From Flavobacterium segetis (GTDB lineage: Bacteria > Bacteroidota > Bacteroidia > Flavobacteriales > Flavobacteriaceae), in assembly GCF_900129575.1 (NCBI RefSeq), contig NZ_FQWE01000001.1, positions 248,001 through 312,000 on the forward strand: a stretch of 64,000 nucleotides of DNA. Reading direction: 5' to 3'. Below are positions 12,840 to 18,284 of this stretch, piece after piece; position 1 is the first letter of the stretch; every line of letters starts with the position of its first letter. The notes below the pieces were generated by a model that saw only the letters and a program-made list of their open reading frames with translations, was not told the origin of the DNA and made no database searches. The position numbers and the translations under genes were made by a program.

Positions 12840-13274
12840 CTAATATCTCAAAAAAGTATCTCCAGATTTAATACCAAGTGCTAACTCCTCTAGATTGGTA
12901 TTTTCTAGCATCAAGGCTAATTCAGTTCTAATTTGAACAAATTTTTCGTGTAAAGGGCAGGGATGTTCTTCATTACATGATTGTAGTCCCAAACCGCAAC
13001 CTGTAAAAACTCGATCTCCTTCGAGTGCAGTGACAATTTGTGCAAGTGTTATTTGGCGCATCAATTCTTTTGATATTTCAAAACCACCACCCACACCTTT
13101 AACGGACTGAACGATGGCATTTTTAGATAGAATTTGTAAAATCTTTGCAGTGAAGGCTTCAGGAGAATCAATTTTTTTTGCTATTTCCTTTAATCCTACA
13201 CGTGTATTAAGATAAGATTGAGAAGCGATAAAGATAGCAGCTCTAATTCCGTATTCACAAGTTTTAGAAAACAT
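12840..13274 (-). CDS. Rrf2-family Fe-S regulator, NsrR-like
   Basis: A 144-residue winged-helix regulator. The N-terminal half is the Rrf2 DNA-binding domain (TCEYGIRAAIF, then KGVGGGFEI for the wing). Three Cys at positions 93, 100 and 106 (GCGLGLQSC, HPCPLH) fit the Fe-S ligands of IscR and NsrR-type proteins, with spacing close to NsrR. NsrR senses nitric oxide and represses NO-detoxification and nitrite-reduction genes. The neighbourhood (hemerythrin, Ric, nirK) supports that role. Two palindromes at 14643-14660 and 14830-14847 are candidate operators. IscR-like function is the alternative. Confidence 0.85.
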   Translation of the reverse strand: MFSKTCEYGIRAAIFIASQSYLNTRVGLKEIAKKIDSPEAFTAKILQILSKNAIVQSVKGVGGGFEISKELMRQITLAQIVTALEGDRVFTGCGLGLQSCNEEHPCPLHEKFVQIRTELALMLENTNLEELALGIKSGDTFLRY

Positions 13275-13352
13275 ACAGTTTGTTTTTTTTACAAATTTAC
13301 AGAATCACGGTAACACTTCTTTGAAATTTTCAATCCACTTTAGTAATTCAAT

Positions 13353-13817
13353 TTATAACCAGAAAACATCGGTATTGTTTTCAATAAAATTCTCGTCAGA
13401 GTGAAATTTACTAATATCAGCCAATTGAGAAGCGCTGGCAATCTTTTGGATTTCAGGAAATAAAGTACGTTCTTCAAATCGAATGTGCTGCTCCAATAAT
13501 TCGGCTATATTCTTAAACGTTTGTTCCAAATCATTCTCTTCCGTAAATAACTTGGTCAATTTATAATGATCGGATAAGGCTTGCTCTACGAATTCGTTTG
13601 CCGAACCAAGCACAGAAAACACAAATTTTTCCTCCAGTTCAAAATGAGACTTTAGATGAGTTTTATAAAACCAATTTATATAATTTTTTATTCTTTTGAG
13701 ATCAATATTTTTTGAAAAGGCAGTTTTAATTTTCCAACACAATTGTAAACCATGATGATGATCATGGCTTAATGGTTGCAGTTCTTTTATTCTCTTTAAA
13801 GGTTTTTGTGAGATCAT
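13353..13817 (-). CDS. Hemerythrin-domain protein
   Basis: About 154 residues from the preferred ATG at 13815-13817 (MISQKPLKR); an in-frame ATG 27 bp further upstream is possible. It is four-helical, with the His/Glu ligands of a hemerythrin-like di-iron site: LSHDHHHG, HFELEEKF, a central DHYKL and EQHIRFEERTLF. Proteins of this group bind O2 or NO or act beside Ric. It is 35 bp downstream of the ric gene on the same strand and 78 bp ahead of the Rrf2 gene, so the three could form one NO-responsive operon. Confidence 0.85.
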   Translation of the reverse strand: MISQKPLKRIKELQPLSHDHHHGLQLCWKIKTAFSKNIDLKRIKNYINWFYKTHLKSHFELEEKFVFSVLGSANEFVEQALSDHYKLTKLFTEENDLEQTFKNIAELLEQHIRFEERTLFPEIQKIASASQLADISKFHSDENFIENNTDVFWL

Positions 13818-13852
13818 AAAATTATTTTTAAGCTTTATTTTCATATTAAACT

Positions 13853-14587
13853 TTAGTTTTCTTTGAACGTATATTTTTGTTCTAAAAGTGCCGCAGCTGG
13901 AAATAAAATATTGTTTTCCAAGTGAATGTGTTTGTGAAGGTCTTGTTCAAAATCACTTAACATTGCAAAAGTCACTTTGTATGTACTACAACCGTCAGTA
14001 GGCGGCGTATAATTATTAGTTAATTCAGCAATTTTTACAAATCGATCACCTTCGGCTTCGTGTTCTTGCATCATCATTTCAATAGGATTTTTTACAGTTC
14101 CAAAATGAGGAGCCTTGATCGCTTCATCAGTAAGACTCGCTTTTGCTAATTTTTTGATAAATGGAAATAAGATTAGTTCTTCTTTTTTCATGTGCTGCGC
14201 TAATTCACCAGCACAACCTTTAAAAAGTTCATTTATTTCAAATAATTCAGGATGAGTAGCACCATGCACTTTACATAATTTGTCTAAAAATGGAAGTAAA
14301 ATTTGAGTCTTTTCTTCCACATAACGATGATGCGTTTTCTCAATATAATCAGCTAATAAATCTAATGGCCAAGATTTAAAGTCAATCCCATTATCATTTT
14401 TAGTGTTTGAAATATTTTCTATCTCTTGATACAAGATATTAATATCAATATTTTTTTTATCACAAGCTTGTTCAATCGTTCTGTTTCCTTTACAACAAAA
14501 ATCAAGGCCATATCTCGAAAAAACGGCTGCTGTTCTAAAATCTTTTGCTACGTATTCTCCTATTGTTATCTTCTCTAAAGTTTGCAT
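13853..14587 (-). CDS. ric: Iron-sulfur cluster repair di-iron protein Ric (YtfE/ScdA/DnrN)
   Basis: A 244-residue protein from ATG 14585-14587; a longer frame beginning 11 codons earlier lacks family similarity. The N-terminal ScdA domain has the twin Cys GLDFCCKGNR (Cys31, Cys32). The C-terminal hemerythrin-like part carries spaced His and Glu residues (THHRYVEE, HMKKEE, MMQEHEAEGD, HIHLENNILFP) for a di-iron centre. Ric repairs Fe-S clusters after NO or oxidative damage. It is divergent from the nirK operon, and its promoter region has a palindrome shared with that operon. Confidence 0.93.
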   Translation of the reverse strand: MQTLEKITIGEYVAKDFRTAAVFSRYGLDFCCKGNRTIEQACDKKNIDINILYQEIENISNTKNDNGIDFKSWPLDLLADYIEKTHHRYVEEKTQILLPFLDKLCKVHGATHPELFEINELFKGCAGELAQHMKKEELILFPFIKKLAKASLTDEAIKAPHFGTVKNPIEMMMQEHEAEGDRFVKIAELTNNYTPPTDGCSTYKVTFAMLSDFEQDLHKHIHLENNILFPAAALLEQKYTFKEN

Positions 14588-14617: not shown

Positions 14618-14660
14618 CAAATTTAAATCTTTTTTTTATATAAAGGACAAATTTATCCTT
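14618..14660 (-). promoter_or_regulatory. ric promoter with overlapping palindromic operator
   Basis: On the minus strand a TAAATTTG -7 box (14618-14625) has a TTTG -33 box (14648-14651) 22 bp upstream. The -33 box lies inside the palindrome AAGGACAAATTTATCCTT (14643-14660). A protein bound there would block the polymerase. A related palindrome occurs in the nirK leader. The likely binder is the Rrf2 regulator three genes away; that is inference. Confidence 0.55.
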
Positions 14661-14772
14661 AATTAAATAATTTTACTAATATTCCTTTTAAATAGCTAAA
14701 TAAGAGATATTTAAATTCATAAAAAATATTTAAAATTATGTTAAATCAATACATTCAAATTATTTAAAAAAA

Positions 14773-14786
14773 ATGATTTTTATCAT
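14773..14786 (+). promoter_or_regulatory. FNR/CRP-type palindrome upstream of nirK
   Basis: ATGATTTTTATCAT is a perfect ATGAT-N4-ATCAT palindrome, one base per half-site away from the TTGAT-N4-ATCAA consensus of FNR/DNR-type regulators. Its centre is about 41 bp before the start site expected from the downstream -7 box, the usual position for class II activation. Confidence 0.5.
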
Positions 14787-14808
14787 ATTTTCTAAATAAT
14801 TTCTTTCA

Positions 14809-14847
14809 TTAATTTGTAGTAATAAAACAAAGGATAAAATCATCTTT
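14809..14847 (+). promoter_or_regulatory. nirK -7 box and leader palindrome
   Basis: TTAATTTG (14809-14816) is a near match to TAnnTTTG, with no good -33 box, as expected for an activated promoter. Downstream, AAGGATAAAATCATCTTT (14830-14847) aligns with the ric palindrome at 14 of 18 positions and would lie just after the start site, suiting a repressor. Confidence 0.5.
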
Positions 14848-14888: not shown

Positions 14889-16379
14889 ATGTATACACAA
14901 TTTAATTTAATCCAGAAAAGTAAGCGCGTTGCAATCTTATTTTTTCTCGCAATCGGAATTTTCGCTTGTAAAGAGAATGAGGAAAAAGATGCCAAATATT
15001 ATGAAAATATAAAAATGGTAGGTCAAAAAACAGCAGAATTGACTGCTCCACCATTTGTTCCAGCGCCAGTAGGTGATCGTCCAGCGATGAAACTTATAGT
15101 TAATATGGAGATTACAGAAAAAGAAGGTGAAATGGTAGATGGCGTAAAGTATACGTACTGGACATTTGGCGGATCTGTTCCTGGAAGTTTTATTAGAACA
15201 CGTGTGGGAGATGAAGTAGAATTTCATTTAAAAAATCACCCTGACAATAAAATGCCGCACAATATAGATTTGCATGCGGTCACAGGGCCTGGTGGTGGCG
15301 CCACCTCATCACTTGTAGCTCCCGGACATGAAAAAGTTTTCAGCTTTAAAACATTAAATCCAGGTTTGTATGTGTATCACTGTGCCACCGCTCCTGTGGG
15401 AATGCACATAGCAAACGGAATGTACGGCTTAATATTAGTAGAACCAGAAGGCGGATTAGCTCCCGTTGATAAAGAATACTACATTATGCAGGGCGATTTT
15501 TACACAAAAGGATCTTACGGGGAACAAGGTAATCAACCGTTTGACATGGAAAAAGCGATAAAAGAACAACCTGATTACGTTGTATTTAATGGAAAAGTTG
15601 GAGCTCTAACTGGTGACAAAGCATTAACTGCTAAAAGAGGTGAAACCGTTCGAATTTTTATGGGAAATGGTGGTCCAAATTTAGTTTCTTCTTTTCATGC
15701 AATTGGTGAAATATTTGATAAAGTACACGTTGAGGGTGGAGATTTAATTAATAAAAACGTTCAAACTACTTTAATTCCTGCTGGTGGTGCTGCTATTGTT
15801 GAACTTAAAGTTGAAGTTCCTGGAACCTTTATTCTTGTAGATCACTCGATATTTAGAGCCTTTAATAAGGGCGCACTAGGAATGTTGAAAGTAGAAGGTG
15901 AAGAAAATAAAAAAGTATATTCAGGCACTATTCAAGAGGGAATTTATTTACCTGAGGGTGGAACAATCCAGACGATGCCAAAGGTTGCAGGTACTCCAAA
16001 AAATACAGTAGCTAAAACACTAGCTCAACAGGTTGTTTCAGGTAAAGCTTTGTATGGAAGAACATGTTCTGCTTGTCATCAAGCAGAGGGACAAGGTGTG
16101 CCAAATGCCTTCCCTCCATTAGCCAAATCAGATTTCCTCAATGCAAATCCAGATAGAGCAGTAAATGCAGTTTTACATGGCTTAAGCGGAGAAGTAACCG
16201 TAAATGGTAAAAAATTCAATAATGTTATGACTAGTCAAAACCTTACTGATGACGAAGTATCTGATGTATTAACATACGTTTATAACAGTTGGGGAAATAA
16301 TAAAACGATTATAACTCCAGAGAAAGTAAAAGCAATTAGAGCAAAACCAGCTCCAAAAGCTAAAGATGTCCATGAATAA
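14889..16379 (+). CDS. nirK: Copper nitrite reductase fused to C-terminal cytochrome c
   Basis: A 496-residue lipoprotein (lipobox GIFAC, Cys27). All NirK ligands are present: type 1 copper His124, Cys165, His173, Met178; type 2 copper His129, His164, His319; catalytic Asp127 and His270. Residues ~380-480 form a class I cytochrome c with CSACH (Cys393, Cys396, His397). It reduces nitrite to NO in the periplasm, and the fused heme probably feeds electrons to the type 1 copper. It heads a plus-strand operon with a paralogous cytochrome c, an FGE-like protein and a SCO chaperone. The lipobox suggests anchoring to a membrane. Confidence 0.96.
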
Positions 16380-16415: not shown

Positions 16416-16793
16416 ATGAAAAAGTATATTTTTTCAATCGCTATGATAGCACTGGCTTTTCAAGGATACAGTCAAAGTGCTGATAAAGGTAAAAAAGTTT
16501 ATAATCAAGTTTGCATAGCTTGTCATCAGCCCACAGGTTTAGGAATTCCTGGAGCTTTCCCACCACTAGCTAAATCTGACTATTTAAATAAAGATGTGAA
16601 TAGAGCCATAAAAGGCGTAGTTCAAGGTCTTAAAGGCCCCATAACTGTAAATGGGACAAAGTATAATAGTATGATGCCTGCTCAAGCACTAAACGATCAG
16701 CAAATAGCTGATGTTATGACTTATGTTTACGCAAACTGGGGAAATAATAAAACTGTTGTAACTACTGTAATGGTTAAAGCTCAAAGAAAGTAA
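16416..16793 (+). CDS. Periplasmic class I cytochrome c
   Basis: A 125-residue protein with a signal peptide (MKKYIFSIAMIALAFQGYS) and a CIACH heme motif; Met in SMMPAQ is a likely axial ligand. Over its whole mature length it matches the NirK C-terminal domain (shared [21 protein letters not shown], then YVYANWGNNKT versus [11 protein letters not shown]), so the two derive from a duplication. It probably shuttles electrons to NirK. It lies 36 bp after nirK. Confidence 0.92.
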   Translation: MKKYIFSIAMIALAFQGYSQSADKGKKVYNQVCIACHQPTGLGIPGAFPPLAKSDYLNKDVNRAIKGVVQGLKGPITVNGTKYNSMMPAQALNDQQIADVMTYVYANWGNNKTVVTTVMVKAQRK

Positions 16794-16814
16794 AACCTCA
16801 AATTAAAAAAAGCC

Positions 16815-17588
16815 ATGTTGAAAAATAAAATAGTTTTGTCATTATTTCTATTAATAGTTACAACATCGCTAGTAGCTCAAGAGCCTAAAATGGTTGCCAT
16901 AGCAAGGGGGAAATTTGTTCCCCTCTATGGTGCTACAACTAAAACTCCTGTTGAAGTAAAACCTTTTTATATTGACGTTTATCCAGTTACAAATGCTCAA
17001 TATCTAACTTTTCTAAAAAAATATCCCGAAAATAGCCGTTCTCGAATTAAAGGAATTTTTGCTGATAAAAGTTATTTATCTCAATGGGAAAGCGACTTTA
17101 GTTTCGGAAAGGTTAATTTGAGTAATGCCCCAGTGACCAATGTCTCCTGGTTTACAGCTAAGAAATATTGCGAATGCCAAGGCGGTCGCCTTCCTACCAT
17201 GGATGAATGGGAATATGTTGCAATGGCTGACGAAAAACGAATTGATGCCCGTACTAAAGAAAGCTTCAATAAATACATTATGTCATGGTACGAAAAACCC
17301 AATACTTATGCGAATCCTGTGGGAGAAACATTTAAAAATTATTGGGGTGTTTATGACATGCATGGATTAGTATGGGAGTGGACCGGTGATTTTAACAGTA
17401 TCTTCTTATCAGGTGAATCACGAAAGGACAAGGATACTGACAAAAATTTATTTTGTGGAAGTGCGTCAGTAAATGCAACTGATTTAATGAACTATGCTGC
17501 TTTCATGCGTTACGCTTTTAGAGGAAGTTTGAAAGCCAGATACACCACAAAAAATTTAGGTTTCCGTTGCGCAAAAGATAAAAAATAG
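16815..17588 (+). CDS. Secreted formylglycine-generating-enzyme-like (SUMF1/FGE) protein
   Basis: A 257-residue protein with a signal peptide ending at VAQEP. It has the FGE fold landmarks: a MVAIARGKF start, VYPVTNAQYL, APVTNVSWFTAKKYCE, GGRLPTMDEWEYVA, HGLVWEWTGDF and a C-terminal NLGFRCAKDK. Only one Cys (FCGSAS) lies where catalytic FGE enzymes carry a Cys pair, so sulfatase-activating activity is doubtful. Similar proteins sit beside nirK in other Bacteroidota as I recall. A role in NirK maturation or electron transfer is inference only. Confidence 0.85.
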   Translation: MLKNKIVLSLFLLIVTTSLVAQEPKMVAIARGKFVPLYGATTKTPVEVKPFYIDVYPVTNAQYLTFLKKYPENSRSRIKGIFADKSYLSQWESDFSFGKVNLSNAPVTNVSWFTAKKYCECQGGRLPTMDEWEYVAMADEKRIDARTKESFNKYIMSWYEKPNTYANPVGETFKNYWGVYDMHGLVWEWTGDFNSIFLSGESRKDKDTDKNLFCGSASVNATDLMNYAAFMRYAFRGSLKARYTTKNLGFRCAKDKK

Positions 17589-17615
17589 TCTTTTATTTTA
17601 ACCAAAAACAAAAAA

Positions 17616-18284
17616 ATGAAATTAACCGATTTTAACTTCGAAATAAAAAAAAGAATTTCGAGCCGATCAAGAATATCATTTAAAAGTAAATCTATTTTAT
17701 ATATATTAATCTGCTTTCTTTTTCTTTCGTTTTATTCCTGTACTAATAAAACAGAAACCAAACCTATTATTGAGGAACCTATTTCTGAACTTTCCATTTA
17801 TAATCTACCTTCAAAATGGACAAATGAAGAAGGTGAAAATTTAGAAATAAAAGATTTAAAGGGAAAAGTATTAGTGATGGTCATGATTTATACCTCTTGC
17901 AAAGCAGCCTGTCCCAGACTTGTTGCTGACATGAGAAACATTGAGCAGCGAATTCCAGAAAAAATTAAAGATCATGTAAAATTCGTTCTAGTAAGTATAG
18001 ATCCGGAGGTAGATACACCACAGAGATTGAAAGCATTTGCAATTGAAAATAAAATGGATGGTGATCAATGGACTTTTTTACGTTCATCAGAGGAAAACAC
18101 TCGCGAGTTTGCAGCCGTCTTAGCAGTAAACTATAAAAAAATCGCTCCATTAGATTTTTCCCATTCAAATATTATTTCTGTTTTTAATGCAAAAGGCGAA
18201 TTAGCCTATCAACAAGAAGGTCTAGGAGTAAACTCTGATCAAACTATCGATAAAATTTTAGAAGAAGCTGAAAAGCTAAATTAA
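17616..18284 (+). CDS. SCO1/SenC-family copper chaperone lipoprotein
   Basis: A 222-residue thioredoxin-fold protein with a lipobox (SFYSC, Cys42) after an unusually long basic N-terminus. The copper-binding CxxxC is TSCKAACP (Cys95, Cys99) and the third ligand is His183 in FSHSN. SCO proteins deliver copper to CuA or other periplasmic copper enzymes. In this operon the client is presumably NirK. It is preceded by 27 bp and followed by 6 bp, supporting cotranscription. Confidence 0.93.
   Translation: MKLTDFNFEIKKRISSRSRISFKSKSILYILICFLFLSFYSCTNKTETKPIIEEPISELSIYNLPSKWTNEEGENLEIKDLKGKVLVMVMIYTSCKAACPRLVADMRNIEQRIPEKIKDHVKFVLVSIDPEVDTPQRLKAFAIENKMDGDQWTFLRSSEENTREFAAVLAVNYKKIAPLDFSHSNIISVFNAKGELAYQQEGLGVNSDQTIDKILEEAEKLN

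Follow-up and report, generated by a model that had tools for sequence, protein, structure and literature searches.

Two palindromes between ric and nirK of Flavobacterium segetis are putative operators of a neighbouring Rrf2-family regulator

NsrR is described in the accessible part of PMC1274295 as widespread in proteobacteria and firmicutes, and the regulon given there overlaps, with dnrN/ric, norB and nirK, the targets that are predicted below for an Rrf2-family protein of F. segetis. In the same part of that source, FNR regulators of the DNR/NnrR/HcpR type also control nir, nor and hcp genes; they belong to another family and recognize another motif, and here they correspond to a separate second input, an FNR-like site beside nirK. 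Rrf2 regulators are overrepresented on scaffolds with clade II nos genes, and what is known of such control is said to come only from Proteobacteria and Firmicutes (PMC6264515, accessible part). The terms Rrf2, nitric, denitrif, Fnr and palindrom are all absent from the accessible part of PMC9723704, and a literature search, which largely did not reach subscription journals, yielded no operator or regulon named for Bacteroidota Rrf2 proteins. Control of nitric oxide (NO) metabolism by Rrf2 proteins is already known.

The window, i.e., the whole stretch of 64,000 nucleotides of F. segetis DNA that was analyzed, contains the following features.

12840–13274, minus strand: rrf2, Rrf2-family regulator of 144 aa with Cys6, Cys93, Cys100, Cys106 and His109, predicted recognition helix at residues 39–51
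13353–13844, minus strand: hemerythrin-domain protein gene, between ric and rrf2
13853–14587, minus strand: ric (ytfE/scdA), iron-sulphur cluster repair di-iron protein (TIGR03652, 242 bits, above the cut-off)
14618–14625, minus strand: −7 box of the ric promoter, TAAATTTG, a perfect TAnnTTTG
14643–14660, minus strand: predicted Rrf2 operator at the ric promoter, reads AAGGATAAATTTGTCCTT on the ric strand
14648–14651, minus strand: −33 box of the ric promoter, TTTG within the operator (promoter consensus from the accessible part of PMC6847099)
14774–14785, no strand: FNR-like palindrome TGATTTTTATCA, centre 14779.5
14809–14816, plus strand: −7-like box of nirK, TTAATTTG, one mismatch to TAnnTTTG
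14830–14847, plus strand: predicted Rrf2 operator in the nirK leader, predicted +10 to +27
14889–16379, plus strand: nirK, copper nitrite reductase with a C-terminal cytochrome c domain (TIGR02376, 354 bits, above the cut-off; PF00034)
16416–18284, plus strand: nirK-linked genes for a cytochrome c, an FGE-sulfatase-domain protein and SCO1/SenC

An earlier note on this DNA had described two palindromes matching at 14 of 18 bases, one overlapping the −33 box of the ric promoter and the other situated in the nirK leader. This was borne out: palindrome 1 (AAGGACAAATTTATCCTT, 14643–14660) and palindrome 2 (AAGGATAAAATCATCTTT, 14830–14847) were found at the same coordinates, they are identical at 14/18 positions, and their self-complementarity is 16/18 and 12/18, respectively. 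The accessible part of PMC6847099 gives the promoter consensus as TTTG/TANNTTTG, whose final G is placed at −5, and describes the −33 motif as weak in F. johnsoniae. The overlap with the −33 box holds, because a TTTG (14651–14648) is included in the ric-strand copy and is followed, 22 bp on, by the perfect TAnnTTTG at 14625–14618; the predicted transcription start of ric is 14613. The position of the second copy agrees with the predicted nirK leader; the predicted transcription start of nirK is 14821, and its ATG is at 14889.

The numbers of matches in the window and in the genome were not elevated. A merged pattern with up to two mismatches matched five times in the window versus 3.99 expected, i.e., without excess over chance, and an IUPAC motif with up to two mismatches had 48 sites in the whole genome versus 47 for a reversed control. 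Among these 48 genome sites, the window pair has the two highest scores (26.4 and 21.0 bits) with the PWM introduced below. Seven further matches were inspected for an own-genome regulon, and none made a convincing candidate: an ORF encloses five of them (including one with 19.2 bits at the 5′ end of its ORF), a sixth extends across the start of an ORF, and the seventh, with 15.1 bits, is intergenic. The pair stands above chance because of its conservation in relatives and not because of window or genome statistics. Judged from this comparison of sequences, the palindromes are copies of a conserved control site.

The relatives' loci were the best 80 of 461 ric loci, to which a few genomes contributed two. 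Many of these best 80 of 461 have ric in divergent orientation to norC-norB, others have it divergent from nirK, and in yet others rrf2, a gene for an azurin/plastocyanin-type copper protein and a long norB precede ric; norC, a cytochrome c by Pfam, was called from its sequence and its place beside norB. The motif AARGAYAAWWTTRTCYTT recurs upstream of ric, norC, nirK, norB and rrf2. A PWM was derived from 68 sites (36 distinct) at most 400 bp upstream of ric in the loci L015–L060, and at a threshold of at least 10 bits it gave 175 matches, training sites included, in the best 80 of 461 loci, versus 1–28 for ten column-permuted versions. A site was counted as an operator when it had at least 12 bits and was within 130 bp of the gene start, with a wider range for nirK, because nirK starts are uncertain. 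In the best 80 of 461 loci, an operator was thus counted before ric in 54/79 cases (often at about −70), before norC in 29/29 and before nirK in 15/17, three counts that are not independent, because the training regions held the ric sites together with the norC and nirK sites of the shared intergenic stretch. The sites of norB and rrf2 were not part of the training, and operators were found before 18/19 norB and 31/35 rrf2 genes of these 80 best loci, in the latter case sitting on the −33 box. A TAnnTTTG at +23 to +26 from the operator centre was present in all 31 rrf2 promoters, always at a distance of 24–26 bp, and in 29 of the 54 ric promoters with an operator (same best 80 of 461), and before rrf2 the operator mostly starts 59–64 bp upstream of the gene. 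On the coding strand, AAATTTGTC often has a G, in agreement with a second role of the operator as −33 box.

The exceptions were inspected individually. The four rrf2 genes without an operator (4/35) are all situated downstream of ric, and one of them, in L067, has no site at all. Eighteen of the 25 ric genes without an operator are directly preceded by a norB that itself carries a site close to its start (in L090 this site is weaker, 14.9 bits, and in L065 the norB start is uncertain). The remaining seven are those of L037, which has a site before nirK only, L052, L053, L056, L057, L067 and L071. L067 encodes ric and an Rrf2 protein with a near-identical helix (AFTAKILQVL), and its 8.7 kb contain no operator and FNR-like sites instead. 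The earlier note had named a lack of the motif upstream of orthologues as one finding that would speak against it; the search revealed conservation before ric, nirK, norC and norB.

The co-occurrence of motif and regulator was analyzed in 150 genomes of the same genus, 61 of which have an Rrf2 match (E ≤ 1e-30) and 70 of which have ric; in the genus motif comparison, upstream stretches shorter than 150 bp and duplicates were dropped. The exact motif was found in 46/150 genomes and its reversed control in 11/150. It was present in 41/61 genomes with an Rrf2 orthologue versus 5/89 without (Fisher, 2.6e-16), in 41/59 versus 0/11 when only ric-bearing genomes were considered (1.6e-5), and in 38/59 versus 0/11 when the count was restricted to sites no farther than 10 kb from rrf2 or ric (6e-5), values that overstate independence because the genomes are related. 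Twenty of the 61 Rrf2-positive genomes have no exact motif, and three of the 41 with it (G017, G045, G139) have it at a great distance from rrf2 and ric, two of these within an ORF. In the five Rrf2-less genomes with the motif, four sites are inside ORFs and one (G140) is intergenic, 94 bp before a 529-aa ORF; these five agree with chance given the 11/150 genomes of the reversed control. The sole other Rrf2 match in the genome of the window (E ≤ 0.001, 33% identity) has no site of at least 11 bits in its 4.4-kb locus.

For ten of the 11 ric genomes without Rrf2, the ric locus was inspected directly; G069, with a fragment of ric, was left out. The best operator score in these ten loci was 4.6 bits, and in seven of them an FNR-like TGAY-N4-RTCA is present within 250 bp of ric, with about 0.04 per locus expected (distances are approximate for L205, L211 and L214, where ric starts off an ATG). 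Because of the lack of an operator and the FNR-like sites in 7/10 loci, ric seems to be controlled in another way in genomes without Rrf2. Overall, ric genes without the Rrf2 operator mostly have an FNR-like TGAY-N4-RTCA (L052, L053, L056, L067, L071, L206, L207, L209–L211, L213, L214; the first five and the other seven loci share some genomes), which suggests a switch of control.

In a search of 296 phylum genomes, Rrf2 matches were obtained in 76. Among 62 Rrf2 genes from outside the genus, 61 were counted and one, a fragment, was left out, and the motif core RGAYAA-N2-TTRTCY was scored at −70 to −50 of rrf2. The core was present in 14/19 genes at 50% identity or more, in 4/6 at 45–50% and in 2/36 below 45%, with about 0.4 of 62 expected. 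Sorted by kinship, the values were 8/10 in the same family, 2/5 in the same order and 10/23 in the same class, and the core was found in 0/23 genes outside the class. A phylum-wide motif was therefore rejected, since every site outside the genus belongs to the same class. One of the core-positive genes, L299, has a poor palindrome. The core was present in 19/30 genes with a PxAFTAK or PxYFIAK helix, and thus absent from 11/30, versus 1/31 genes with other helices (P = 2.9e-7, with helix classes that were defined after seeing the data). The core was seen in five families of this one class. The main point of the earlier note holds, and the predicted Rrf2 operator of NO genes reaches further than stated there.

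Diverged paralogues offer a view on recognition. Six Rrf2 paralogues with 49–57% identity have AYTSK where the window protein has AFTAK, within the predicted recognition helix 39–51, and for five of them the upstream DNA was readable and revealed a TGGAY- or CAGAC-type palindrome at −60 to −63 each, e.g., ATGGACAAATTTGTCCAT and GTGGATATTTTTGTCCAC. Four ric genes in clusters with AYTSK paralogues carry GTGGAY-type palindromes; in L252 the variant site was found before the AYTSK paralogue and none before the adjoining ric. G030 and G094 contain both types of paralogues, each with its own operator type. This covariation of helix and operator was counted once, because it is probably one evolutionary event. 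A group with about 50% identity and the helix PFTAKILQ has no site before its own gene, while Rrf2 proteins with the closely similar helix PFTAKIMQ have it. In an Rrf2 subgroup of about 50% identity (second Rrf2 gene, L231, L237, L243, L246), an FNR-like site of the ATATGAC-N4-ATCATA type at about −59 replaces the operator.

The Rrf2 protein of the window scored 89.4 bits with PF02082 (gathering score 30) and 86.9 bits with TIGR00738 (73.3), and its AlphaFold model (pLDDT 83.4, pTM 0.76) has the winged-helix Rrf2 fold. The nearest solved folds are CymR, RsrR, NsrR and IscR. CymR and RsrR gave the best solved-structure matches (E about 2e-7 to 1e-6), but they are only about 20–24% identical to the window protein, and CymR is titled a global cysteine regulator. 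The earlier note had credited the protein with three cysteines; there are four (6, 93, 100 and 106), three of them in the usual cluster region. Together with His109 they are invariant in 16 aligned orthologues, and a cluster is likely to be bound via Cys93, Cys100 and Cys106. In IscR the ligands include a Cys-x2-His at the last cluster cysteine, and the window protein has the same ending (Cys106/His109). It shares Pfam family and fold with the IscR/RirA/SUF regulator branch, but it is far below all equivalog cut-offs of this branch (IscR, 51.8 vs 207.55), its cysteine spacing is C-x6-C-x5-C, and its nameable targets are NO genes. With NsrR it has the winged helix and three clustered cysteines (conserved: C93, C100, C106) in common, but its score with the NsrR equivalog of NCBIfam is 31.1 bits, below the cut-off of 182. 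In the alignment of the 16 orthologues, residue 7 is an invariant Glu and residue 8 is Tyr; in NsrR, Asp8 is the fourth cluster ligand according to the accessible part of PMC13404960. Searching the literature for the numbering of the NsrR cysteines did not bring up a paper. The operators also differ, gATGyAT-N5-ATrCATc for NsrR (PMC1274295, accessible part) versus RGAYAA-N2-TTRTCY here. The best match to the NsrR operator in the ric-nirK intergenic region had four mismatches, the 80 ric upstream regions (best 80 of 461 loci) had 3–6, and with up to three mismatches the window had four matches, all with three, versus 9.48 expected, none of them in the ric-nirK intergenic region. Taken together, the window protein looks like this group's own counterpart of NsrR, and by score or operator it is not NsrR.

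A second input is indicated by the FNR-like palindrome at 14774–14785, which the earlier note had not mentioned. It is situated at −41.5 from the predicted nirK start and at −59 from the centre of the nirK operator. In the best 80 of 461 loci, an offset of −53 to −59 from the operator was found in 22/29 norC promoters; for nirK promoters it was −59 in one and −20 in 14. In the −20 loci, use of a weaker TATTTTTA box would still result in about −41, and these loci were not counted as support. Two CRP/FNR-type genes of the genome exceed the Pfam cut-off, and an FNR-like protein encoded there reached 86.7 bits with the Fnr model, below the cut-off of 228. The gene of this protein is preceded by a site of the same type, and another such site is present upstream in the cbb3 oxidase genes; the FNR-like protein may bind beside nirK. 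CRP/FNR homologues of Flavobacteriales MAGs were predicted to sense carbon (PMC8510549, accessible part).

The two palindromes are probably operators (AARGAYAAWWTTRTCYTT) of the Rrf2 protein encoded at 12840–13274, an NsrR-like repressor that would gate ric and nirK together with an FNR-type activator. An Rrf2 dimer with a cluster on Cys93, Cys100 and Cys106 would sit over the −33 box of ric-hemerythrin-rrf2 and would also cover the start of the nirK transcript, and ric and nirK would both be kept off. NO would damage the cluster, Rrf2 would leave the DNA, and ric and nirK would be expressed; nirK, like norC in relatives, would additionally need the FNR-like activator at −41.5. The earlier note had proposed a shared NO-responsive repressor, and the part concerning operators of the cluster's Rrf2 is well supported by sequence comparison, namely by the recurrence of the motif upstream of orthologous genes, its joint occurrence with Rrf2, the conserved sites that precede rrf2 and the operator variants that go with certain paralogues; the link to this Rrf2 and the placement on promoters are supported as well. 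Binding, repression, the cluster, the NO signal and the FNR-like activator are what we infer. For repression, the argument is the operator positions: the operator covers the −33 box (ric, rrf2) or the transcript start region (nirK, norC), and Rrf2 is therefore most likely a repressor. The target genes and the cysteine pattern make NO the obvious guess for the signal that releases the protein. Counting against the mechanism are L067, which lacks an operator, the group of about 50% identity whose own genes have none, and the 14 nirK promoters of relatives with an FNR-like site at −20 instead of −59.

Other explanations had to be weighed against these results. The match counts in window and genome, which are no higher than in the controls, would suit a chance likeness of two AT-rich palindromes, but given the fixed-position conservation across many genomes and other families of the class this has a negligible probability. 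A different regulator, e.g., of the CRP/FNR family, might bind the palindromes, with Rrf2 as a mere neighbour; two such genes are present in the genome, and FNR-like sites are found by ric in 7/10 Rrf2-less genomes and beside nirK here. Yet the FNR-like site is a separate motif that co-exists with the operator in the same promoters, and the GA-N6-TC geometry of CRP and FNR boxes (PMC1274295, accessible part) is found in the site at 14774–14785 and not in the window palindromes, which have GA-N8-TC. In addition, the exact operator is absent from 11/11 Rrf2-less ric genomes, and it precedes rrf2 itself and varies with the Rrf2 helix, which makes another regulator improbable. Less remote, but still unlikely, is that Rrf2 binds the operator and responds to a signal other than NO (Fe-S or iron status, oxygen, nitrite, redox). 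Its scores of 51.8 bits for IscR and 56.8 for the SUF regulator versus 31.1 for NsrR, the Cys-x2-His ending like that of IscR and the anaerobic ribonucleotide reductase gene that follows ric in several relatives point in this direction; against it, the nameable genes by the sites serve, apart from rrf2, to make NO, to remove it or to repair the damage it does (nirK, norC, norB, ric).

The genome is 100% complete by estimate, and a search of it revealed no recognizable NorB and no Hcp. It contains three COX1-family genes, whose best NCBIfam matches are cytochrome-oxidase models, one of them (L115) above the cut-off, with scores that clearly exceed those of the relatives' NorBs with these models. 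A search for NosZ gave nothing that reached the cut-off in the genome, the single weak match being nirK itself, and the species may be nirK-only. It is tempting to speculate, although this wider reading is rather doubtful than probable, that a class-wide NO regulator of the Bacteroidota, distinct from NsrR and with an operator code of its own, controls denitrification and NO defence, that its duplicates diverge by joint changes of helix and operator, and that here NO made by NirK would derepress nirK, a positive feedback for which an FNR-type activator would set the stage. Bacteroidota include many environmental nitrite and N2O reducers, and a defined operator opens the control of nirK and nor, and hence the release of NO and N2O, to direct tests in flavobacteria that can be cultured.

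Several observations concern the neighbouring genes. An ORF of about 420–430 aa that resembles a membrane protein adjoins ric in two loci (L064:4779-6074, L054:4805-6067); it has no Pfam match, and the ORF of L064 has no NCBIfam match either. The anaerobic ribonucleotide reductase gene nrdD and, by sequence, a probable nrdG are situated between ric and the hemerythrin gene in L019:4770-7878 and similar loci. A TAAATTTG box at 13292–13299, about 25 bp before the rrf2 start, is present without an operator in the window and in several close relatives, and because of this own box rrf2 may also be transcribed alone and unregulated. The order of the genes for cytochrome c, the FGE-sulfatase-domain protein and SCO1/SenC is kept beside nirK in those relatives whose locus reaches them, and the separate cytochrome c comes after the NirK-cytochrome c fusion.
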